Part shown: positions 4,165 through 16,393 of the stretch, piece by piece
Position numbering within the stretch: position 1 is the first letter of the stretch
Layout of the letters: every line of letters starts with the position of its first letter
DNA from: Paludibacter sp.
Lineage (GTDB): Bacteria; Bacteroidota; Bacteroidia; Bacteroidales; Paludibacteraceae
DNA length: 51,156 nt
Assembly (NCBI GenBank): GCA_017882285.1
Contig: JADGPS010000012.1
Span: 1 to 51,156 of the forward strand
Direction of reading: 5' to 3'
The notes under the pieces: model-generated
Told to the model about the DNA's origin: nothing
Database searches by the model: none
What the model saw: the letters and a program-made list of their open reading frames with translations, nothing else
Translations under genes and position numbers: made by a program

Positions 4165-4204
4165 ACCAAAAAACTCCCCGATACGCATCAGCCTATCGAG
4201 GAGT
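4165..4204 (-). terminator. Hairpin terminator, copy B of the ACTCCCCGATA family
   Basis: Stem ACTCCCCGATA (4173-4183) with TATCGAGGAGT (4194-4204), then T-rich on the minus strand. The hairpin plus the flank GTTGTCTTTTATCTT closely matches copy D at 15327-15375, downstream of the intact GGGtGRT gene. Confidence 0.7.
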
Positions 4205-4235
4205 TGTCTTTTATCTTGGTTCTTGATTCTAAAAT

Positions 4236-4546: not shown

Positions 4547-6451
4547 TTAAGGCTCACATGAATCCTCATCATTGTTCAATTCCTCATTGATAACCTTTGC
4601 CATTCCAGTTTTTAATACTTCTAAGAATGTTTTATTCCGTAATTCAGCATCATTTAGAAAAGCATCGAATGAAAGTATAAATAGACCGATAGGAACTGAA
4701 GTAACTTCATCATCCAATAATGCATCATGTTCTTTGTAGTAAACACTACCAGAAGAATATAACTCAACAAATTTTTCTTCTTTGAGTGATATGCGGAATT
4801 CGGCATCAATATCAACAATACCATAGAACCACAATCTTTGAATTTTATTCGGATAATGTTTTATCAATTTTCTGGCGCGTTGTTTTAATTGGCTGACAAC
4901 TTCTTCTCTTTTAGCCAATGGCAATCCAAGTTTTTTTAATTCAATAATAACTACATCAACCTTTGAGTTTTCTGACATTTCATTTGAGAAAACAATTGCT
5001 ATATCAGGTCTTTTGATATCTTTAAACTCATTTTCCGAAACTTCAATATATGGCAAAATATCATCAAATTCTCTATCGCTTAAAATGGAAGTGTACGACA
5101 TGTATTTATCATCCAACAACCATGCATTGTTAGTAAATAAAGTTTTAGCCCAGTCGGACTTTTGAAATGTTTTTTTACGCGGAACAATTAAATCATGTAT
5201 TTCTAACTCTGAATTTTTTACATCTAAATTTCGGAGATTCTGAATAATAATGTTTCGGTACAGAATATATTCCATTAAAGTTCTGGAAGATACTTCTAAT
5301 GCCTTTTCATATTTTTCTTCAGAAAGTATATTTTGTGTTTCTAACACTTCTTTTTGTGCAAGAAAAAACTTTTTTTGAGCAACTTCGAGGGCTTTGTTTG
5401 TTTCAATAATTCCTACATAATCTTGATTGAAATAACCCTGTAAATGGGGATATGTGTCATATAAATGGCTTTTAATTCTTGTATTCTCAGATTGAATAAA
5501 TGGAATTTCCTCTGTGAGTATTTCCATTGCATGTTTACGGAATAAATGCTTTGTGGTATTTAAATCATTCTCACTCAAAACTAATTCCTGTCTTGAAGAA
5601 TTGGATTTACCTTTGAAAAAGTCCGAGAAGAATAGAAAAATAATGTCGTATCCGGCAGGAACAGCCTCTTTAGGCATTATATCTATTGGTATAGTACGAC
5701 CTTCAACACAAATAGCTGTAACAATAGTAGATTCTTTGTCTGTGCGCTCAACCTTATAGAAAATATCGAATGTTTTGAATAAGTCTAAGTTCTCGGCATT
5801 AAATTCTTTTACTTTTAGATTTGTTATTTCGCTGGCAGTGAAGCTTTTAGAATCATTAAAGAAATCCTGGTCTATTTGGGGCTGAAGAGTGGTTAAAGTG
5901 ATATTGATTTTCAAATCTTTGCCAGCTTTTACTAAAGAAAATAGGTTTGGATAAAAGTGATATGCTATTGATTTAATTAACATACTAGGTTTAATAAAGT
6001 CATATGAATTAATTTTTTTACCTTTAAAGCCAGTGAAAATTAGTTTACTGCCTTGTTTATCACTATTTGATTTTGGTAATACCGTGAAATTTTTCTTTTT
6101 AAACGTACTTTGAAAAGTAAACTTTCTTGTAGAATTATTATAAGTACTTGTAACATCTATTTTATTGAAGTATTTCAGGAAAACAAGCCTTCCAAGCCCT
6201 TTGTGGTCTTCTTGATCAGTTTCAAGTAATATACCGAACTTTTTGTATCTTTCATTTGTAAAACCATCACCATTATCAGAAATAACAATAGTTAAAGATT
6301 CAGACGCAGCAAAAGAATCAATATATATTAGAATATCAATCACATCTGCATTGGCATCAATTGCATTTGCAACAGCTTCAAAATAAACTAATTCTAATGA
6401 GGTTGCTGTTGGGAAAAAATAACTTATTGCCTTTTCTAAATTAATTTCCAT
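4547..6451 (-). CDS. GHKL-type ATPase with C-terminal PD-(D/E)XK nuclease-like domain
   Basis: A 634-aa protein. Its N-terminus is a GHKL (Hsp90/MutL/MORC) ATPase: N-box FEAVANAIDANA at 24-35 (E25, N29, D32), G1 motif SDNGDGF (D59, G61, G63), and G2 motif KGLGRLVF at 84-91. An S5-like middle region runs to ~310. A helical segment with coiled-coil character lies at ~345-395. The C-terminal domain carries RPDIAIV (D483) and VIIELKK (E504, K506), the spacing of a PD-(D/E)XK nuclease. The gene follows res on the same strand after 199 bp. MORC-like GHKL proteins are known in R-M operons, so an ATP-gated defence nuclease or R-M accessory factor is likely (inference). Its target is unknown. Confidence 0.75.
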   Translation of the reverse strand: MEINLEKAISYFFPTATSLELVYFEAVANAIDANADVIDILIYIDSFAASESLTIVISDNGDGFTNERYKKFGILLETDQEDHKGLGRLVFLKYFNKIDVTSTYNNSTRKFTFQSTFKKKNFTVLPKSNSDKQGSKLIFTGFKGKKINSYDFIKPSMLIKSIAYHFYPNLFSLVKAGKDLKINITLTTLQPQIDQDFFNDSKSFTASEITNLKVKEFNAENLDLFKTFDIFYKVERTDKESTIVTAICVEGRTIPIDIMPKEAVPAGYDIIFLFFSDFFKGKSNSSRQELVLSENDLNTTKHLFRKHAMEILTEEIPFIQSENTRIKSHLYDTYPHLQGYFNQDYVGIIETNKALEVAQKKFFLAQKEVLETQNILSEEKYEKALEVSSRTLMEYILYRNIIIQNLRNLDVKNSELEIHDLIVPRKKTFQKSDWAKTLFTNNAWLLDDKYMSYTSILSDREFDDILPYIEVSENEFKDIKRPDIAIVFSNEMSENSKVDVVIIELKKLGLPLAKREEVVSQLKQRARKLIKHYPNKIQRLWFYGIVDIDAEFRISLKEEKFVELYSSGSVYYKEHDALLDDEVTSVPIGLFILSFDAFLNDAELRNKTFLEVLKTGMAKVINEELNNDEDSCEP

Positions 6452-6515
6452 AACTATAATATTGATATTGTTAAACTTTTAATTATATTACTCCTAGTAA
6501 AATGAACAAATTACC

Positions 6516-6572
6516 CTATTTCAGCTTATCACAATAGCCCAGCACTTCTTCTACTTTCTCGACAGAAGTAAT
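6516..6572 (-). pseudogene. Possible HsdS (type I specificity subunit) remnant
   Basis: A short minus-strand frame between stops reads ITSVEKVEEVLGYCDKLK and ends in TAG. It resembles the conserved KVEELM-x-LCD-x-LE segment of type I specificity subunits. Only 18 codons remain, so chance similarity is quite possible. It lies in the 199-bp gap between res and the GHKL gene. Confidence 0.25.
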
Positions 6573-6650
6573 TATGTAACTTATTTTGCAGGTTTTAGCT
6601 TATCAGTTGGCATGTACGATTTGAATAAGTGCTTGACTACAAAGCGTGGG

Positions 6651-9209
6651 CTATAAATTCAATGTTTCTTCCAATGTTTTCTTAAATTCGTTTTCGTTTT
6701 CATTGTTATAGAAAGGAACACCAGTAATCAAATAGTTGTCTGTGTATATTTTGATTGTCCTTTCTTCTTCTCTAATTTCTTTTAAAAAGTCCTCTTTCCA
6801 TTTGTCGTGAGCAACCAAGTGAGCACCTTTAGGCTCAATGAAAACTTGATAAGTAAGTTCCTTGTATTTTTTCTGTTTGCAGAATAAAATAAAGTCAGGT
6901 TCAAATGCTCTACCGAGCTTGTCAATGATTTTGATTTCTCTTTCGTTTCGGATTAAATAAATGTCTTTGAATTTTTGACCTAAACTTTCAAAGCGTCTAG
7001 CGAACATTGAAACAAAAGATTTTTCTTCACTTGTCCCGTAGTTTGCATTGTAAACATACCAAGGCTCATTTGCTACAAGAGTTTCTTGTCCGTCTGCTCT
7101 TTCGCTGTCTTTGTAAACTTTGATTTCCTTGTCCTTGAAAACCTTGTGAACATATTCTTTGATATACTCCGAACCTTCATACTCTGTCAGGTTGGATTTT
7201 ATCTCCGATTCAATGCTTTGTAAAAGTCCTTGTATAGAAAGCAAATAATCATTGTTTGTTATATCTGTAAGTCTTTTCTTTGAACCATTAAAAGTAATTT
7301 CCAAACTTCCTAAGTAGTCCATGCTGTCAATAAAATTAGATAGCGAGCCAACATTTGGAAAATACCTCTGTAAACTGTCGAAGTAGAAGAATGGATTTTG
7401 TGCCAAAGCAAAACGCACAATGTGTTTTGGAATAACTGAAAGTTTGATGTCTTTACTTTCTATTTTTTCAGTTGTAGTTTCTTCTTCTACAATGAAAACC
7501 CCCGACATTTTACCAATCCCTGAAGATAGGATATATGAAAAGTTACGTTTAAAAACTCCAAAGTCAGCAAATGATTTTACATTATTATAGCTTTTAGGAA
7601 CTTTTTTATTGTAAACGACTTGACCTGTTCTGTAAAATTCAGTTTCCTTAAAGTCTAATTTCAGTGTAAGTTGTTTTGTTAGCAATTTTTCTTCGTCTTC
7701 ATAAATACCAGAAAGAACAAGAGCTTTCTTTAATTCAGAAATATAGTTACTATTCTCTTTTGTATGATAATAAAGCTCTTCTAATATTTTTAAATCGTTA
7801 GATGGATCGTTGTCATATTTTCTTGTATATTTATCTTGACCAGGTTCTAATGAAAACGGAAAATATCTTGCACCTCTTCCAATTAATTGAGCTTCTGAAA
7901 GTGTTGTCTTACCAACTGTAGTATTTGTTCCTCCTGAATTCTGACCTTCATATAATCGAACAATATCAAACAAATTCAAAACGTCCCATCCTTCATTTAA
8001 TTTTTGAACCGCAAAAACTGCACGGATTGGATTATTTTCATCTTCTAATGTGTTTAAAAGTAATTGATTCTTTTCTGCTTCATCGTCGTTGTTTGCACTT
8101 ATACAATTCTCAAAACGAAAATTCGATTTAATTCTTCTTGAAATTTCGGATGAGGAAATATTTTTTATATCAAAGAATTTAAAAGCTTTCTGAACTATTG
8201 AAACTGTTGCTGTATTTCTTATTTCATCAATCGTTTGAGATGACAATACATCTATAAGGTGGTGAAAGTTTACTTTGTTCTGTTCAGATTCTTTAATTGT
8301 TTTTTTTGCTTTAAAAAGAATTACAGGCTTTAAGTTGATATTGTTTGCAGTTGCCAATTCTTGACGATATGTGTTTAAAATTAAGGCTTGTATGATGCGT
8401 TCTTGTTCATCATACATTGACCTTATAAGATTGATTTCTTTTGAGTATTTGTCAATTCTGAATTGAGCAAGGTCGTATTTGAAAATAACTTTGTCTTGAT
8501 AATGATTTAGTAAGGCTGCTGTTTCTGTGTCAATAGTAGCAGTAAATTCAAGTAAGATGTTATCAAAATTAGATTCATGAATTTTCTTTACCGTATCTTC
8601 CCAGCTACCAAAAAGATTCCCCGATCTTGTTCCTGCTACTAAATGGTGTGCTTCATCAGCAATCAACACCATTTTTTTGTCTTTAAAATCTTCATAAGTA
8701 ACGCTGTTCTCTTTGGTGTTATTTAAATCAATATGAAGTTGCTGAATAGTCGTGAATTTGATATTGATGTTTTTATCATCAGCACTTTCAAAGGTGTCAG
8801 TTTCCTTTATATAAACCTCTTTTCCGTCAATTACTATTTTGTCGTTAAACAAATATTTTGAAGCCTGCGGATTCAAAAAGTTGTCTTTCGTTTTCTTGAT
8901 AATGTTGTTTGAGTTTACGAAAAATAAAAAGTTCCTATATCCTTTCTCATACAAGTAAAGCATCAAACCCGCCATTATCAAAGTCTTTCCGCTACCTGTT
9001 GCCATATTATACAACAAGTGAAACGGTTTATTTGGTCTGCCTTCAAAATCTTCAGTATGGCAAAGTATATAACGCTGAAACGATTCTATTTGATAAGGTC
9101 TCTGACCAAAGCCAGACTTAAGATTATCGGTTATATAATTAGGAACAGGAATACGGGCAATTTCTCTTTTACCAAACTCCTGCACTAATGTGTCGTATAA
9201 AAAACTCAT
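6651..9209 (-). CDS. res: Type III restriction endonuclease subunit Res
   Basis: An 852-aa SF2 helicase-nuclease. Visible motifs are Q-like GQRPYQIESF, Walker A ATGSGKT (70-76), the DEAH box in ADEAHHL (185-188), a helicase C-terminal region with NEGWDVLNLFD and motif VI QLIGRGARYFPF, and a C-terminal PD-(D/E)XK nuclease (EPDFILF with D772; VFIEPKG with E792 and K794). Its length is slightly below the usual ~900-1000 aa but all motifs are present. It starts 5 bp after the mod stop, a tight translational pair. Res acts with Mod to translocate or diffuse along DNA and cut near inversely oriented unmethylated sites. Confidence 0.95.
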   Translation of the reverse strand: MSFLYDTLVQEFGKREIARIPVPNYITDNLKSGFGQRPYQIESFQRYILCHTEDFEGRPNKPFHLLYNMATGSGKTLIMAGLMLYLYEKGYRNFLFFVNSNNIIKKTKDNFLNPQASKYLFNDKIVIDGKEVYIKETDTFESADDKNINIKFTTIQQLHIDLNNTKENSVTYEDFKDKKMVLIADEAHHLVAGTRSGNLFGSWEDTVKKIHESNFDNILLEFTATIDTETAALLNHYQDKVIFKYDLAQFRIDKYSKEINLIRSMYDEQERIIQALILNTYRQELATANNINLKPVILFKAKKTIKESEQNKVNFHHLIDVLSSQTIDEIRNTATVSIVQKAFKFFDIKNISSSEISRRIKSNFRFENCISANNDDEAEKNQLLLNTLEDENNPIRAVFAVQKLNEGWDVLNLFDIVRLYEGQNSGGTNTTVGKTTLSEAQLIGRGARYFPFSLEPGQDKYTRKYDNDPSNDLKILEELYYHTKENSNYISELKKALVLSGIYEDEEKLLTKQLTLKLDFKETEFYRTGQVVYNKKVPKSYNNVKSFADFGVFKRNFSYILSSGIGKMSGVFIVEEETTTEKIESKDIKLSVIPKHIVRFALAQNPFFYFDSLQRYFPNVGSLSNFIDSMDYLGSLEITFNGSKKRLTDITNNDYLLSIQGLLQSIESEIKSNLTEYEGSEYIKEYVHKVFKDKEIKVYKDSERADGQETLVANEPWYVYNANYGTSEEKSFVSMFARRFESLGQKFKDIYLIRNEREIKIIDKLGRAFEPDFILFCKQKKYKELTYQVFIEPKGAHLVAHDKWKEDFLKEIREEERTIKIYTDNYLITGVPFYNNENENEFKKTLEETLNL

Positions 9210-9214
9210 TGTGC

Positions 9215-11203
9215 TTATTTTTTAAGTTGGTAAAAATCTTGGGTAACTTTATTTTCCTCCGCCGAAACTGCAAAGTCTTTGTCGTTTATTGAAGAAAGAT
9301 TTACATACAATTGATTTTTGTCTAACAACTCAACCAAATGTTGTTTTTGTTCTGCTAAGGTTAAGACTTTAAATTCTTCAATATGTGCTTCTTGCTTTTG
9401 TATATCCACGTTGTAGTTAAGAAATGATTTTGCTTTCATCTCTTCCCAAATTTTCAATACGGCTTTCGTGTCTTTAGCAGATTTAATTTCTTCAACAAAG
9501 TTTTGATTGTATTTTTTAAGTTCAAGGTAAACAAACTGTCCGCCACCTTTCCATTTCACCGCTTTTGAAATTCCAGTTGCATCACCAGCAATTACATTTT
9601 TCAGTCTAGTAACGCTGTCGTTATCGCCATAATTCAACTGCTCCAAACCAATGTATTGTCTTTTAAGTTTATGAGCTGCGGCAGTTGTAGTTCCACTACC
9701 TAAATGATAATCAAGTACTATGTCATTTTCATTTGTAGCTAATTCAATTATTTGTTTGATAAGTTTTTCTGGTTTTTTCCCATTCTTTAATTTAACTCCG
9801 CCTTCATTTGCAATGCCAGCCCAAGATATGTGATTCCAAAAATCGGTTAACAGTTCAGTTACTTCCATTTTGCCATCAAGCTCTTGCATTTTATTTGAAT
9901 AGAAAGCTAATGCACCGCCTTTATACAAATACATTGTACTACCATCTTCTCTTTGATATTCAATTACCTTATCTTCATTTTTCGATTTTATCATTAAATC
10001 TTTTAGTCTTTCAGTCGGCTTATGAGGGTCACGAACACTAACAACATTTGAAGCATTTTTATAGGCAAAATCTTCTATCATAACCTTAATAATACTACTC
10101 CATAAATCACCGTATTTTTTCTTGGCTTCGGGTTCGTTTACAAACCCTGCATCTCTAATTACCTTTTCTTTTAATGGAGTAAATTCCCATTTACTAACAT
10201 CATCGTTCTTGTCTAAATACAGGTTGTAGTTTGCATTGTAACCTACAGGAACATAACCTTTCTTAAACTCAAACTTGGATTTGTTTTTTGTATAAAAAAG
10301 AATGTATTCAGTAACGTCAATTGGACCTGGGTTTACAGTTTTAAATCCTGCTGGAGAAGCAGTTTTTATAGATATAACTTGCACTTTATTCTCTTTTCCA
10401 AAAACTTCATCTAAAAGGACATTAAGGTAACCTAATTGATGATGATCTATGTGAACATAGATTGCACCTTTGTCACTTAAAAGTGTAAGTGCAACTTGTA
10501 GTCTATTACGCATAAATGTCAACCACGTGGATTGATTGAAGGAATCATTGTATTTGAAAGCATCGCTTCCAGTATTGTATGGTGGGTCAATGTAAATCAG
10601 TTTTACTTGTCCAGCAAATTCTTCTTTTAAAGAATGTAGTGATAAAAGATTGTTTCCTTTTATAATTAAATTGTCGGTAATTATTCCTTTTTCGTTACGA
10701 TTAAATTTGCCGAGTGGTTTTTCTCCTTTGTCTGTATAACGAATTGAATTTGTAAAAACCTTTGGTTCTAAAAGTTGAGTTATTTCGTCTTGTGCAAGTG
10801 TTTCATTAAAAAATATTTCCTCACGTTTATCTTCTTCACGGCTTTGTCCGCCTTCTAAAACACAGTCTTTAAAAGGCCAAACTAACGCAACTTCGTTGCG
10901 TTGTTTCAAGTATTTTCCATCTATGTTTAAACCAACCTTGTTTTTGTAAGCGGTGTAACTATCATTCAGATAGTTCTTTTGCTCCAAGAATTGAACAAAT
11001 AAAGATTGGTTGAAAACCAATATGCCTTTAATTTCAATAAAGAATTTTGCTTTTAGTTCTTTGTCGTCAAGCAATAAGCCAATAAGTTCAGCATCATAAT
11101 TCTGTGCTTTATTTATTACAACCCATTTTTTAAGTTCTCCGTTGTCGGTAATATAGTTTGGCTCTTTTTTTAACTGAGTTTCTAATGTTTCGTATAGTTT
11201 CAT
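9215..11203 (-). CDS. mod: Type III DNA methyltransferase subunit Mod
   Basis: A 662-aa adenine methylase of the beta class. Catalytic motif IV IDPPYNTG is at 205-212 (DPPY 206-209), and the AdoMet motif DYHLGSGTTTAAA is at 498-510. The region between them (~260-480) is the expected target-recognition domain. Residues 1-150 form the Mod N-terminal extension. Order IV before I is normal for this class. Mod methylates one strand of a short asymmetric site and guides Res. It leads the mod-res pair, with a -7-like box (TATCTTTG) at 11224-11231. I see no simple-sequence tract in the gene, so phase variation by slippage is not indicated. Confidence 0.95.
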   Translation of the reverse strand: MKLYETLETQLKKEPNYITDNGELKKWVVINKAQNYDAELIGLLLDDKELKAKFFIEIKGILVFNQSLFVQFLEQKNYLNDSYTAYKNKVGLNIDGKYLKQRNEVALVWPFKDCVLEGGQSREEDKREEIFFNETLAQDEITQLLEPKVFTNSIRYTDKGEKPLGKFNRNEKGIITDNLIIKGNNLLSLHSLKEEFAGQVKLIYIDPPYNTGSDAFKYNDSFNQSTWLTFMRNRLQVALTLLSDKGAIYVHIDHHQLGYLNVLLDEVFGKENKVQVISIKTASPAGFKTVNPGPIDVTEYILFYTKNKSKFEFKKGYVPVGYNANYNLYLDKNDDVSKWEFTPLKEKVIRDAGFVNEPEAKKKYGDLWSSIIKVMIEDFAYKNASNVVSVRDPHKPTERLKDLMIKSKNEDKVIEYQREDGSTMYLYKGGALAFYSNKMQELDGKMEVTELLTDFWNHISWAGIANEGGVKLKNGKKPEKLIKQIIELATNENDIVLDYHLGSGTTTAAAHKLKRQYIGLEQLNYGDNDSVTRLKNVIAGDATGISKAVKWKGGGQFVYLELKKYNQNFVEEIKSAKDTKAVLKIWEEMKAKSFLNYNVDIQKQEAHIEEFKVLTLAEQKQHLVELLDKNQLYVNLSSINDKDFAVSAEENKVTQDFYQLKK

Positions 11204-11286: not shown

Positions 11287-11856
11287 TTATGCCCTAGTAC
11301 TTTTCTTTAAATCATTTGGTAAAAACAAGTCTATTTCATCGTCTGAAAATGTCAATTCTTCATTTGATTTTAAAGCTTTGCTTGCTTTATCGTATGCTCC
11401 ATTTATTGACCGTGGTGCACCTTGATAAATATTATGAAGTTCAACTTGTAATTCATCTCTTTTTTGTGTAATTTTTTCAACGTCAATAATTCCAGCTTTA
11501 ATGTCTGTCAATAGTGAAAGGTAAGTTTCTCGAATATTCCATAAATTAGAAGCGCAATCAGCATGCTTTTGTGCGATTTGCCCCAAATCATAGTTTTTAA
11601 GATACGTATTTAGCGCTAAAAGTGTTGTTGAAATAATCGCTGTCAAAATACCAACCCATTTTTGGTCACCAACAATAGTTATCATAATACCTGTTGTTGT
11701 TATAGCCGACAAAACTATCTGTGTGACTTTTATTGTTCTATTTCTACTTAATAATATATCTGCACACTTTTCTTGTGTTTTGTGAGTCCATGCAACTCGA
11801 CCAAAACACTCCCGAATCTGAGATTCAAGTATTTTAATTTGGGAATTTTGTTCCAT
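11287..11856 (-). CDS. SLATT-domain two-helix membrane protein, predicted CBASS effector
   Basis: A 189-aa protein from ATG at 11856 (MEQNSQIKIL). The frame extends upstream to 11907, but the internal ATG gives the normal SLATT N-terminus and a 23-nt overlap with the CD-NTase stop. Two adjacent hydrophobic helices lie at ~42-62 and ~66-86 (VTQIVLSAITTTGIMITIV; WVGILTAIISTTLLAL). A helical tail follows with AQKHADCASNLWNIRETYLSLL, ending in DEIDLFLPNDL, typical of SLATT proteins. SLATT proteins are predicted pore-forming effectors triggered by nucleotide signals. Overlap with the CD-NTase gene indicates one coupled transcript. Confidence 0.82.
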   Translation of the reverse strand: MEQNSQIKILESQIRECFGRVAWTHKTQEKCADILLSRNRTIKVTQIVLSAITTTGIMITIVGDQKWVGILTAIISTTLLALNTYLKNYDLGQIAQKHADCASNLWNIRETYLSLLTDIKAGIIDVEKITQKRDELQVELHNIYQGAPRSINGAYDKASKALKSNEELTFSDDEIDLFLPNDLKKSTRA

Positions 11857-12715
11857 AAATTTCTCTCCATTTTTGATTTGCTGACCATTCCATATTTTTT
11901 CCTTCATATATTAAAGCCTCTAATGATAAATTATAGCATTGTCTAGCTTTACTCTCAAAATTTCCTTTTCTCCAAACATATTGATTAGAGCCTGGAGCCG
12001 ACCAATATTGTTGGGTTGTATTCTGATTCATAAGATACTGAAAGAAATCTCTCGTCATCCAGTCATAGTATATATAAGAATTTCCTTTGTATGCCCAATT
12101 TGTGAGGAAATTATAAGCTAGAGTGTCAATTAATAGTCCGCCAATTGGAACAGCCCAAGTGTCTTTCCAAGCTCTTGCCATTCGACACAGTCTTTTTAAA
12201 TTATTATTACAAACGGCAGAATTAGCATTAATAATTTCTGCTATTTCAGGTTTTGGGTTTGTTGTTTTCCAACTACCACCATTGTTGGAGTCAGGAAAAG
12301 TATAACTACCGTTAGAGTTTAAAAAACATGGAACAATTTCGAAAGATATACCATCTGTAAAGTCTAATTTAATAACTTGTCCATCTGTGCCTAAATAGCT
12401 TAAGGAATAAGTCTTACATATAGCATTTTTAACTGCTTGCAGAAGGGAAGATTGCCCATTATAGGTGTAAGCGTTATATTGTGTATAAACACTATATGGT
12501 AAAACAAACAACATGTCAATGTCACTTACATGAATAGCCGTACCTCTACCATATGAGCCGACATAAATGCTATGTAATGTTTCTGAATCACTACTGTAAA
12601 ATTCTAAATTTAATCGTTTCGTGATTTGTTTGTATCTGCTTGATACATTGTTTACTACTATCTGAGGCATTCTCAGATTGGTGCAAAAAGCTTGAAATTT
12701 TTCACTGATACTCAT
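11834..12715 (-). CDS. SMODS-type CD-NTase (CBASS nucleotide second-messenger synthase)
   Basis: A 293-aa nucleotidyltransferase. The polymerase-beta-like active site is GSYGRGT (53-59) followed by SDIDMLFVLP (D65, D67); the third acid is E126 in SFEIVP. A helical C-terminal half follows (NNLKRLCRMARAWK; IGGLLIDTLAYNFL), as in CD-NTases. These enzymes make cyclic oligonucleotides on phage infection to activate a linked effector. The partner is the overlapping SLATT gene. No ubiquitin-like, HORMA/TRIP13 or other ancillary genes are adjacent, so this is a minimal (type I) arrangement. Which nucleotide it makes cannot be read from the sequence. Confidence 0.85.
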   Translation of the reverse strand: MSISEKFQAFCTNLRMPQIVVNNVSSRYKQITKRLNLEFYSSDSETLHSIYVGSYGRGTAIHVSDIDMLFVLPYSVYTQYNAYTYNGQSSLLQAVKNAICKTYSLSYLGTDGQVIKLDFTDGISFEIVPCFLNSNGSYTFPDSNNGGSWKTTNPKPEIAEIINANSAVCNNNLKRLCRMARAWKDTWAVPIGGLLIDTLAYNFLTNWAYKGNSYIYYDWMTRDFFQYLMNQNTTQQYWSAPGSNQYVWRKGNFESKARQCYNLSLEALIYEGKNMEWSANQKWREIYGTKFPN

Positions 12716-12946: not shown

Positions 12947-13274
12947 GCTTTTTGGGTAGTTATGAAATAGTATTAAATGAAAAAAGTGAGCAGAAATGTA
13001 TTATTCCACTCACTTTTAAAAAGATTATCTTAGTAATTTTAGCTTATTCCCAAATTTTAGAGTCTAACTTATCCATTTCCTCGCCAATATAGTTATCTTT
13101 TATTTTAGAGTACTATATAATCTTGTAACTGAAATGTTTAGGGCTTCACCCACTTCCTGATTTAGCTCCGTCTATCTTGAGAAAGTGATGTAAAGGGGTT
13201 TTTAAGATGTTTCAGATAAGTACAAACTTCTAAATGAAAAGTATAATCTTACTTACGATATTATTAAACACAAA

Positions 13275-13304
13275 ACTCCCCGATACTGAGTTGTACCGGG
13301 TAGT
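13275..13304 (-). terminator. Hairpin, copy C of the ACTCCCCGATA family
   Basis: ACTCCCCGATAC pairs with GTACCGGGTAGT, with one or two mismatches. It lies downstream of the truncated GGGtGRT copy, as copy D lies downstream of the intact gene. A 16-bp palindrome TCCGCCAGCTGGCGGA follows at about 13323-13338. Confidence 0.55.
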
Positions 13305-13351: not shown

Positions 13352-13828
13352 TTATTTCGCCATTTCAATAGCCACAGCCACTTGAACGGTAGCTCCAACC
13401 ATTGGGTTATTACCCATTCCAATGAATCCCATCATTTCCACATGAGCCGGAACTAATGAAGAACCTGCGAACTGAGCATCACCGTGCATACGTCCCATTG
13501 TGTCGGTCATGCCGTACGAAGCCGGCCCAGCCGCAACATTATCAGGGTGTAACGTACGGCCTGTACCGCCATCTGAAGCAACTGAGAAGTATTTTTTACC
13601 TTGTTCCATACATTCTTTTTTGTAGGTACCTGCTACCGGGTGTTGGAAACGGGTTGGATTGGTTGAGTTACCGGTAATCGATACGTCAACACCTTCGGCA
13701 CGCATGATAGCCACACCTTCACGAACATCATCGGCACCGTAACATTTCATAGCTGCACGAGGTCCGTCAGAATATGCTTTGGTACGTACTACTTTCAATT
13801 CGCTTGTATAATAATCATTGTTTTTCAA
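13352..13828 (-). pseudogene. Truncated duplicate of the GGGtGRT-family gene (C-terminal half)
   Basis: The frame matches residues ~178-331 of the intact protein encoded at 15398-16393, with only about six substitutions, so the copy is recent. The N-terminal half is absent and the only in-frame start near the breakpoint is TTG at 13828. The family signature reads SDGGTGRT instead of SGGGTGRT, a change in the motif that names the family. The downstream hairpin was copied too. It is probably not functional. Its position next to the defence island suggests a rearrangement or integration scar. Confidence 0.8.
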
Positions 13829-14787: not shown

Positions 14788-15326
14788 GCATTTCGTATGC
14801 TAACCCTAAAGCATTTTGCTTCATTTCTCTTTTGAAAATGTGGGTAGCTCCACGATACTTCCTATTTTAAAATTTCACCTTCGAATGCATTGCAGTGCTT
14901 CGGGGGTGTTTTTTTGCCTGAATGACTCAAAATAGACTGTAAGTTTGTGTCAAAACTACCTGACTTTTTCAGAAAAAGACTTGATGTTTTCCCGAAAACT
15001 ACCTGATGTTTTAAAAAAACTACTTGTTGCATTCGGAAAAATCGCTGAAAAGTTGAAACCAAGTTCCAAAACGCACAAAAAAGAGCTTTTGTATCTAATT
15101 TCGTTGCAAAGATAGACTAACGGGAGTGTTAATTGTATACTTTCAATCTTTAAATAAATCTAAATAGGGTTAATTTGAGTTCGTTTTATGTTAAAACTGA
15201 ACATTCAATCGGATGTATTTGTATGAGAATAGTAGGTATAGGTACAGATTTATTTTGCGGAGCAAGTGGTTTTTTAATTGATTTCAAAAAAAGGTTTACT
15301 GATTGTTAACAAAATATGCAAATAAA
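14788..15326. other. Intergenic region with 21-bp degenerate tandem repeats
   Basis: About 540 bp after the HU-like gene. It contains four ~21-bp units of the type ACTACCTGATGTTTT between ~14955 and 15040. The minus-strand frame 14862-15062 (66 aa) reads through them as seven-residue units (MQQVVFL, KHQVVFG, KTSSLFL, KKSGSFD), but I cannot show that it is translated. Confidence 0.5.
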
Positions 15327-15360
15327 AGCTCCCCGATACGCATTCGCATATCGGGGAGTT
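15327..15360 (-). terminator. Hairpin terminator, copy D of the ACTCCCCGATA family
   Basis: Stem GCTCCCCGATA / TATCGGGGAGT with loop CGCATTCGCA, 38 bp beyond the stop of the intact GGGtGRT gene. The minus-strand exit is only moderately T-rich. Confidence 0.7.
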
Positions 15361-15374
15361 GTCTTTTATCTTAG

Positions 15375-15400
15375 AACCCCCTTTAGGGGGCAGGGGGTCA
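15375..15400. repeat. GC-rich palindromic repeat (CCCCTAAAGGGG type)
   Basis: The minus strand reads TGACCCCCTGCCCCCTAAAG and onward, and its first TGA is the stop codon of the GGGtGRT gene. Similar units sit just after gene ends at 43099, 49098 and, inverted, 49191. Confidence 0.6.
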
Positions 15401-16393
15401 TTTCGCCATTTCAATAGCCACAGCCACTTGAACAGTAGCTCCAACCATTGGGTTATTACCCATGCCAATAAATCCCATCATTTCCACGTGAGCAGGAACA
15501 GATGAAGAACCGGCAAACTGAGCATCACCGTGCATACGTCCCATCGTGTCCGTCATACCGTACGAAGCCGGTCCGGCCGCAACATTATCAGGGTGAAGTG
15601 TACGTCCGGTACCACCACCTGAAGCCACCGAGAAGTATTTTTTACCTTGTTCGATACATTCTTTTTTGTAGGTACCTGCAACAGGGTGTTGGAAACGGGT
15701 TGGATTGGTTGAATTACCGGTAATCGATACGTCAACACCTTCCGAAGCCATAATAGCCACACCTTCGCGAACATCGTCTGCACCGTAGCATTTTACAGCA
15801 GCACGTGGGCCGTCGGAATATGCTTTGGTACGAACCACTTTCAATTCGCTTGTGTAATAATCGAATTCAGTCTGAACATACGTAAATCCGTTGATACGTG
15901 AAATGATCATGGCTGCATCTTTACCCAATCCGTTCAGGATAACGCGCAAAGGTTCTTTACGAACTTTATTAGCCGATAAAGCAATACCGATAGCACCTTC
16001 GGCAGCTGCAAACGATTCGTGTCCGGCAAGGAAAGCGAAACACTTGGTTTCGTTGCGGAGCAACATGGCAGCCAGATTTCCGTGACCAAGACCTACTTTG
16101 CGGTCTTCGGCTACCGAACCGGGAATACAGAATGCCTGCAAACCGATACCGATAGCTTCGGCAGCTTCAGCAGCTGTTTTGCAACCTTTTTTTATAGCGA
16201 TAGCAGCACCTACCACGTAAGCCCATTTTGCGTTTTCGAACGCGATATTTTGAATTCCTTCACAAATTGCATAAGGATCAATATTTTTGGCAGCGCAAAT
16301 TGCTTTGGCTTCATCGATATCCTGGATACCGTATGTATTAAGAGCCGCATTAACCTTGTTGATACGACGGTCATAACTTTCAAATAGTGGCAT
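15398..16393 (-). CDS. GGGtGRT-family protein
   Basis: A 331-aa protein of the conserved but poorly characterised GGGtGRT family. The name motif is visible as VASGGGTGRTLHPDN, with further conserved stretches RFQHPVAGTYKKECIEQGK, GHGNLAAMLLRNETKCFAFLAGHES and GFIGMGNNPMVGATVQVAVA. It has no signal peptide or membrane segment and is probably cytoplasmic. It follows the NifU-like scaffold gene on the same strand after 76 bp, a pairing that suggests shared Fe-S or redox work (inference). A recent truncated copy lies 2 kb away. Confidence 0.85.
   Translation of the reverse strand: MPLFESYDRRINKVNAALNTYGIQDIDEAKAICAAKNIDPYAICEGIQNIAFENAKWAYVVGAAIAIKKGCKTAAEAAEAIGIGLQAFCIPGSVAEDRKVGLGHGNLAAMLLRNETKCFAFLAGHESFAAAEGAIGIALSANKVRKEPLRVILNGLGKDAAMIISRINGFTYVQTEFDYYTSELKVVRTKAYSDGPRAAVKCYGADDVREGVAIMASEGVDVSITGNSTNPTRFQHPVAGTYKKECIEQGKKYFSVASGGGTGRTLHPDNVAAGPASYGMTDTMGRMHGDAQFAGSSSVPAHVEMMGFIGMGNNPMVGATVQVAVAIEMAK

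Follow-up and report, generated by a model that had tools for sequence, protein, structure and literature searches.

A stretch of Paludibacter sp. DNA, comprising positions 1 to 51,156 of contig JADGPS010000012.1 (assembly GCA_017882285.1; all 51,156 nucleotides are called the window below), carries on its minus strand a run of five same-strand genes, namely, in minus-strand order, a SMODS CD-NTase, a SLATT_4 protein, mod and res of a type III restriction-modification (R-M) pair, and a gene encoding a GHKL ATPase fused to a nuclease domain. The last of these, whose product is termed P0001, is the subject of this study. An earlier sequence-only reading had pointed out that mod, res and the GHKL gene are collinear, with gaps of 5 and 199 bp, and had proposed that together they may form an expanded three-gene type III system. 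The arrangement itself was confirmed in open reading frame (ORF) coordinates, all three genes lying on the minus strand, with 5 bp between mod and res and 199 bp between res and the GHKL gene. The features concerned are as follows:

4547 to 6451, minus strand: paraMORC3-type GHKL ATPase with a Shedu-like PD-(D/E)XK nuclease (P0001), 634 amino acids (aa)
5462 to 6451, minus strand: GHKL plus S5 module of P0001, residues 1-330, with N-box E25/N29/D32, DNGDG at 59-63 and HKGLGR at 83-88
4547 to 5341, minus strand: C-terminal nuclease region of P0001, residues 371-634, with E415, H419, D483, D499, E504-x-K506 and Q521 invariant in 55 homologues
6452 to 6650, minus strand: spacer between res and the GHKL gene, 199 bp, present in a single copy in the genome and hence no genomic repeat
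6651 to 9209, minus strand: type III Res, an 852-aa superfamily 2 (SF2) helicase; Pfam ResIII 7.3e-31, PADLOC REase_III 8.3e-137
9215 to 11203, minus strand: type III Mod, 662 aa, with DPPY at residue 206; Pfam N6_N4_Mtase 1.5e-43 and TypeIII_RM_meth 3.8e-20, PADLOC MTase_III 9.8e-195

These three genes are not chance ORFs, because their frames encode 662, 852 and 634 aa with intact motifs in each, and because 55 homologues of the GHKL protein could be aligned. The pair mod-res corresponds to a type III R-M system, with Mod combining an N6/N4 methylase and the type III N-terminal domain, and Res being an SF2 helicase with GSGKT at residue 72 and DEAH at 185. Res also shows a C-terminal PD...ExK pattern (771, 792), whose residues suggest that it may be catalytic.

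Motifs and fold matches bear out what the sequence-only reading had said of the third gene, that it encodes a GHKL ATPase of MORC-like type joined to a nuclease domain. In the ATPase half, E25, N29, D59, G61, G63, G85 and G87 are invariant across the 55 aligned homologues, and the fourth GHKL ATP-binding motif was not located in the protein. Pfam returned only HATPase_c_3 (1.5e-7) and no nuclease match; PADLOC (PADLOC-DB 2.0.0) found nothing in the protein at E<=0.01, a sequence comparison of P0001 with the Protein Data Bank (PDB) gave no match, and profile comparisons detected the MutL and PMS2 ATPase domains, at best with 2.1e-4. An AlphaFold2 model built on the 55 aligned sequences reached a predicted local distance difference test (pLDDT) score of 83.9. 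When the Foldseek candidates for residues 1-330 were given a second look with VIA, the best matches were the ATPase structures of MORC3, MORC2 and MORC4 (Z 18.1-19.4, root-mean-square deviation 3.6-5.0, 271-295 residues aligned), followed by SMCHD1, Hsp90, MutL, Topo VI and GyrB at Z 16.4-17.5.

The C-terminal half retains E415, D483, E504 and K506 in all 55 homologues, and modelled alone (residues 371-634) it attained a pLDDT of 88.2. A VIA second look at Foldseek's 1000 candidates placed Shedu structures at ranks 1-4 (8ti9, Z 10.8; 8ti8, 9.5; 8ps5, 9.5; 8ps4, 9.4), with the restriction-enzyme subunit R.BspD6I2 (Z 9.0), McrBC (8.1), Can2 and FokI after them. By fold, the nuclease thus resembles the SduA proteins of Bacillus cereus and Escherichia coli, which contributed these first four entries; unlike them, the window protein has a MORC-like ATPase ahead of its nuclease. 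The fold match alone was rejected as proof of Shedu membership, the Pfam signature of that family being absent.

The combination of domains agrees with paraMORC3 as described by Iyer, Abhiman and Aravind in 2008 (PMC2292703), in which GHKL and S5 domains are followed by a C-terminal restriction endonuclease (RE) fold with an E-D-ExK signature, and which is patchily distributed, prevalent in Proteobacteria and Bacteroidetes, and found in some cases in R-M neighbourhoods and in others standing alone. P0001 displays the GHKL motifs, an S5 domain after the GHKL domain, and an RE fold in which E415-D483-E504xK506 fits E-D-ExK; in domain order and patchiness it agrees with the published description. 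The S5 assignment rests on the alignment of residues 1-330 with MORC and MutL ATPase modules (Z 16-19), which are described as including an S5 domain (PMC2292703). The MORC family proper was considered and rejected, as the MORC-specific S5 motif GhXhhpXXRhl is absent from P0001, and only 2 of the 55 homologues match the pattern anywhere. We therefore file the protein as paraMORC3-type without assigning it to Shedu, while the models suggest that it would act like a GHKL-Shedu.

The family is sparsely scattered: at E<=1e-10, and with the own genome counted in both cases, 3 of the 395 genomes sampled across the phylum had a match, and 8 of the 295 sampled across the order. P0001 had no match in phage records, and a single-sequence search of viral contigs confirmed none; twelve viral contigs (L088-L099) do hold GHKL relatives, two at 40-41% identity and ten at 25-26%, which suggests carriage by prophages or comparable elements as well. 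Plasmid matches were confined to four records at ~22% identity.

To place the gene in context, we scanned one genome per species, keeping 80 of 110 confirmed GHKL relatives (38-59% identity); gene order and family neighbourhoods, like the domains, motif residues and fold matches above, were read directly from the sequences or models. Among the 79 loci with a called anchor, 21 have less than 3 kb on one side. The R-M and BREX (bacteriophage exclusion) labels derive from profiles made from these same loci, after naming by PADLOC and Pfam in L081, L024 and L015. A first sorting yielded 14 BREX loci (at least two core genes), 15 type I loci (at least two hsd genes), a weak class of three loci with one hsd gene within four genes, one locus with a type III mod, and 47 with none of these. 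Scans of chosen neighbours moved seven of the 47, through IIG-type enzymes (L012, L017, L021), C5 methylases (L038, L040) and type ISP enzymes (L067, L078). In the final tally 40 of the 80 loci belong to or adjoin R-M or BREX operons (18 of type I, 14 of BREX type 3, 3 IIG, 2 ISP, 2 C5 and 1 of type III), a raw count rather than 40 events, as it includes near copies (L028-L031, L062/L068, L038/L040). The earlier expectation that MORC-like GHKL genes occur in R-M operons is thus upheld. The BREX loci are presumably all of type 3, going by the gene set of L081 (brxF, brxC, pglXI, brxHI, pglZ) and the usual definition of that type.

In the remaining 40 loci the neighbours were scanned in part, through chosen proteins. 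A tally of 34 neighbour proteins from unlabelled loci contained one EcoRI-type methylase and one GmrSD_N match, neither tied to a locus. L032 holds a GajA-GajB (Gabija) pair at 5158-8873, 166 bp upstream of the GHKL homologue, and elsewhere the chosen neighbours included helicases (L009, L026, L057), a phage integrase (L046) and ordinary genes, for instance those for GMP synthase (L053) and an NADH dehydrogenase subunit (L082). The nearest sister of the window protein, from L008 (59% identity), is grouped with it in the tree with a Shimodaira-Hasegawa-like approximate likelihood ratio test (SH-aLRT) value of 100; upstream of its gene lie mnmE, a Fic gene and sulfatases, and the contig ends ~1 kb downstream. 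Two of the 80 loci, both outside the tree, lack a single intact GHKL frame, namely L012 (10001-11887, split in two ORFs) and L055 (10001-11845, no called GHKL ORF), and may be decayed copies next to defence genes that are otherwise present.

Within the restriction operons the position of the gene is regular. It lies between hsdR or hsdM and hsdS in 10 of the 15 type I loci, with gaps of -26 to +50 bp, and directly before pglX in 10 of the 13 BREX loci in which the GHKL ORF was called. In six of these 13 the GHKL gene overlaps an AlbA/Schlafen gene by 11 bp; such a gene precedes it in L052, L059, L071, L074, L080 and L081 (in L081 a SLFN_AlbA_2 plus HATPase_c_4 protein), and in those six BREX loci the two travel as a pair. 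Of the 349 ORFs within 2 kb of the GHKL gene, 62 are labelled R-M or BREX genes, all on its strand; further out the figures are 24 of 200, 28 of 211, 18 of 217 and, at 8-10 kb, 4 of 205, a fall-off that is partly built in by label profiles made from the same loci. On the tree the type I label requires nine changes and the type III label two (two separate positions), while the BREX members form one group if only labelled rows are considered and require two changes on all rows. Such changes of label indicate that restriction operons gained or lost the GHKL module time and again, and we take the module to be a portable one, which has found its way into a wide variety of these operons many times over.

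A MutL-type role in repair rather than defence, to which the profile matches to MutL and PMS2 lend some colour, and which PMC2292703 allows for versions outside R-M contexts, is barely credible in view of the sporadic distribution, the linkage to R-M, BREX, Gabija and CBASS (cyclic oligonucleotide-based antiphage signalling system) genes, and the Shedu-like nuclease model.

The proposed link to type III systems is not supported by the same survey. The sequence-only reading had suggested scoring how often mod-res genes lie near GHKL homologues: a type III mod is adjacent in one of 80 loci and Res in none, no Res homologue being detected in the 80 loci by phmmer at E<=1e-3, with 21 of them having less than 3 kb on one side. 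The single case is L016, where 3 bp separate the GHKL gene from a following type III methylase gene, named by PADLOC and cut by the contig end; mod-like genes in L031 and L087 are ~7 and ~9 kb away on the opposite strand. In the reverse direction, Res matches at E<=1e-50 were found in 8 of the 395 genomes of the phylum sample, own genome included, and neither the GHKL gene nor CBASS genes occur near the 7 other Res relatives (five at 67-79% identity, two at 43%) in stretches of 11-19 kb, of which L113 ends ~0.8 kb after res. A Res relative occurs in 240 plasmid records, two of which were opened (H5, H6); H6 has a nearby opposite-strand gene named 'ATP-binding protein' and is not among the four plasmid records with a P0001 match. 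Some mod-res relatives have an extra gene between mod and res that is absent from the window: L108 (6806-7651, 281 aa) and, of the same kind, L109 (7394-7843, 149 aa) and L131 (7492-7929, 145 aa).

Hence, an obligatory three-gene machine, in which Mod-Res would pick the target and the GHKL protein would trap loops or cut, is very improbable. It could draw on the shared strand and short gaps, on L016, and on operons in which genes of the sister family MORC accompany Rad25-like helicases of the sort usual in type III systems (PMC2292703); against this stand the counts of 0/80 for Res and 0/7 for the GHKL gene, on which we rejected a dedicated type III system, and the truncation of L016 by the contig end. 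The sequence-only reading had named two outcomes that would count against it, homologues scattered without R-M neighbours or an unrelated operon in most genomes; the type III link fails, whereas the second was not observed, half of the loci having R-M or BREX neighbours. Most likely, mod-res and the GHKL nuclease are neighbours rather than parts of one machine, and the GHKL gene is the last gene of a defence cluster and not an obligatory subunit of Mod-Res. A coupling of the GHKL protein to Mod-Res is possible, with no conservation behind it.

We consider it quite probable that the product of 4547-6451 is a self-contained anti-phage nuclease of the paraMORC3 or GHKL-Shedu kind, a portable module that happens to neighbour Mod-Res. 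Its closest functional parallel is VcSduA, a GHKL plus PD-(D/E)xK protein that blocks phages as a single gene and loses activity on E27A or K557A substitution; it has been classed as Shedu type I-D, and similarly organised proteins are said to have been annotated as paraMORC3 (PMC12137116). The window protein is likewise a single protein with an N-terminal GHKL ATPase and a C-terminal PD-(D/E)xK nuclease, and because VcSduA, with similar domains, restricts phages as a single gene, it may act alone on phage DNA, independently of Mod-Res. As in MORC and MutL, the GHKL plus S5 half would bind ATP, dimerise and close as a clamp on DNA, and this closure would position or release two C-terminal Shedu-type PD-(D/E)XK domains to cut phage DNA. 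We infer such ATP-gated cutting by a dimeric clamp; co-transcription of the gene with its neighbours is possible.

Several observations weigh against this interpretation. The Shedu match is one between predicted and known folds, with 17-20% of residues identical; 8ti9 alone is ahead by over 1 Z unit, the other three Shedu rows tying with R.BspD6I2, and no Shedu structure is in Foldseek's own top 50 for the nuclease model. A profile of the C-terminal domain found no Shedu chain and nothing meaningful among PDB sequences. VcSduA is described with DUF4263 (PMC12137116), whereas 0 of 55 members of the window family match that model, Pfam SduA_C, at E<=0.1, although it is present in the library, as matches of a neighbour protein attest. 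The likeness to VcSduA is one of described domain organisation. With the ATPase half, ordering the Foldseek matches by E-value brings HtpG/Hsp90 and GyrB to the top. Finally, the overlapping frames inside the type I and BREX operons of relatives argue for functional coupling there, and in the window the five genes share one strand with a terminator-free spacer, making co-expression with mod-res possible.

A second alternative is that the GHKL nuclease is a backup effector coupled to the restriction system, a further layer that would be triggered once phage anti-restriction has disabled Mod-Res, or by DNA that restriction has produced or stalled. The proportion of family loci in or beside R-M or BREX operons (40/80), the embedded positions in type I loci and before pglX, and the concentration of labelled genes within 2 kb as against 8-10 kb are all in keeping with it, and auxiliary nucleases in BREX loci, including Shedu forms, have been described as backup effectors, with Schlafen-type genes bearing a minimal histidine kinase domain also listed among them (PMC12839542). 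By analogy, the idea could extend to the type I and BREX copies of the GHKL gene. However, the window gene is separated from res by 199 bp with no overlap, L008 has no R-M neighbour, close mod-res relatives lack the gene, about half of the family has no recognised R-M neighbour, and VcSduA works alone (PMC12137116); we regard such a role as distinctly unlikely. A more general proposition, unlikely but deserving mention, is that these proteins serve as an all-purpose second nuclease, gated by ATP, which can be added to nearly any defence operon that modifies DNA (types I, III, IIG, ISP, C5 and BREX type 3). Such a nuclease would sense a DNA state common to these operons, or the block that phages put on them, and the type III pair of the window would then be one more host of the module.

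Directly upstream of mod, on the same strand, lies a pair of genes absent from the sequence-only reading:

11834 to 12715, minus strand: SMODS CD-NTase (CBASS cyclase), 293 aa, with GSYGR...DID motifs; Pfam SMODS 1e-47, PADLOC Cyclase 3.5e-136
11287 to 11907, minus strand: ORF of a SLATT_4 CBASS effector with two transmembrane segments (2TM); SLATT_4 2.7e-71, PADLOC 2TM effector 4.9e-82, the match beginning at residue 19

The true start of the SLATT_4 gene is likely the internal ATG at 11856, which would give an overlap of 23 bp with the cyclase, the same as in four plasmid relatives. With a CD-NTase that has its active site and a SLATT/2TM effector, the pair constitutes a type I CBASS; no further ORF of at least 100 aa, and hence no candidate ancillary gene of that size, lies between 11203 and 12715. 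The cyclase matches 203 plasmid records, five of which were opened. The pair is free of R-M genes in an Enterococcus plasmid, adjoins an opposite-strand gene for an AlwI-family endonuclease in a Macrococcoides plasmid, precedes two uncharacterised genes in a Haliscomenobacter plasmid, lies within a type I operon in an Arcobacter plasmid, and is flanked by N6-methylase and helicase genes in a Microcystis plasmid. The window therefore presents a restriction core with a module on either side, both modules being found elsewhere free of R-M genes as well as inside restriction operons. It is a mosaic defence cluster of a CBASS pair, a type III R-M pair and a single-gene nuclease, with no new type of system. 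To our knowledge, the usual definitions of type III R-M and type I CBASS contain no GHKL gene.

Turning to expression and provenance, the 199-bp spacer showed no terminator-like site in the minus-strand direction, so that read-through from res into the GHKL gene is possible. A weak promoter-like site at 6482-6453 precedes the GHKL start, a single site of the kind expected by chance. The window as a whole has 51 sigma-70-like sites against 42.1 expected. A Bacteroidetes-type promoter pattern has 5 matches in the window against 6.0 expected, with none in the cluster spacers on the minus strand. The five cluster genes have a G+C content of 0.30-0.335 and the adjoining genes 0.40-0.46. A claim of a low-G+C island was nevertheless weakened on re-checking, since other 2-kb bins of the window are equally poor (0.307-0.329; average outside the cluster 0.369), and G+C content alone is thus no proof of acquisition. 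Defence content and patchy distribution suggest that the cluster was gained by horizontal transfer. Bordering it, 13352-13828 is a shortened 3' copy of the neighbouring gene 15398-16393 (463 bp aligned, 90% identical), with DGGTGRT in place of the GGGTGRT motif of that gene; this partial copy may mark the insertion of the cluster. Repeat elements containing AACTCCCCGATA flank the cluster on both sides (2577-2625, 4169-4217, 13261-13286 and 15324-15372) and are probably terminators of resident genes.

Part of this picture has precedents: MORC and paraMORC genes have been known from R-M operons since 2008, MORC (not paraMORC3) with type III-kind helicases, and a working GHKL-Shedu since 2025. 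In the consulted sections of PMC2292703 the paraMORC partners are SF2 helicases, DNA methylases, Vsr and RE genes, with BREX, type ISP and overlapping hsd positions unnamed; in 2013 paraMORCs fused to Ymh-type HEPN domains were described from R-M neighbourhoods (PMC3710099), and in 2021 a family of paraMORC-like histidine kinases encoded close to R-M genes of types I and II (PMC8011034). A literature search of limited depth turned up neither paraMORC3 alongside type III Mod-Res nor a regular place for it inside hsd operons. For the window alone the result is modest, and the breadth of restriction partners is its more interesting part. Annotation by PADLOC-DB 2.0.0 would miss a GHKL gene that, in several phyla, is embedded in type I and BREX operons. 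Should the copies there cooperate with their host systems, this would explain why one nuclease recurs beside unrelated enzymes, and would connect restriction with the clamp of MORC and MutL, a link put forward by Iyer et al. in 2008 (PMC2292703).

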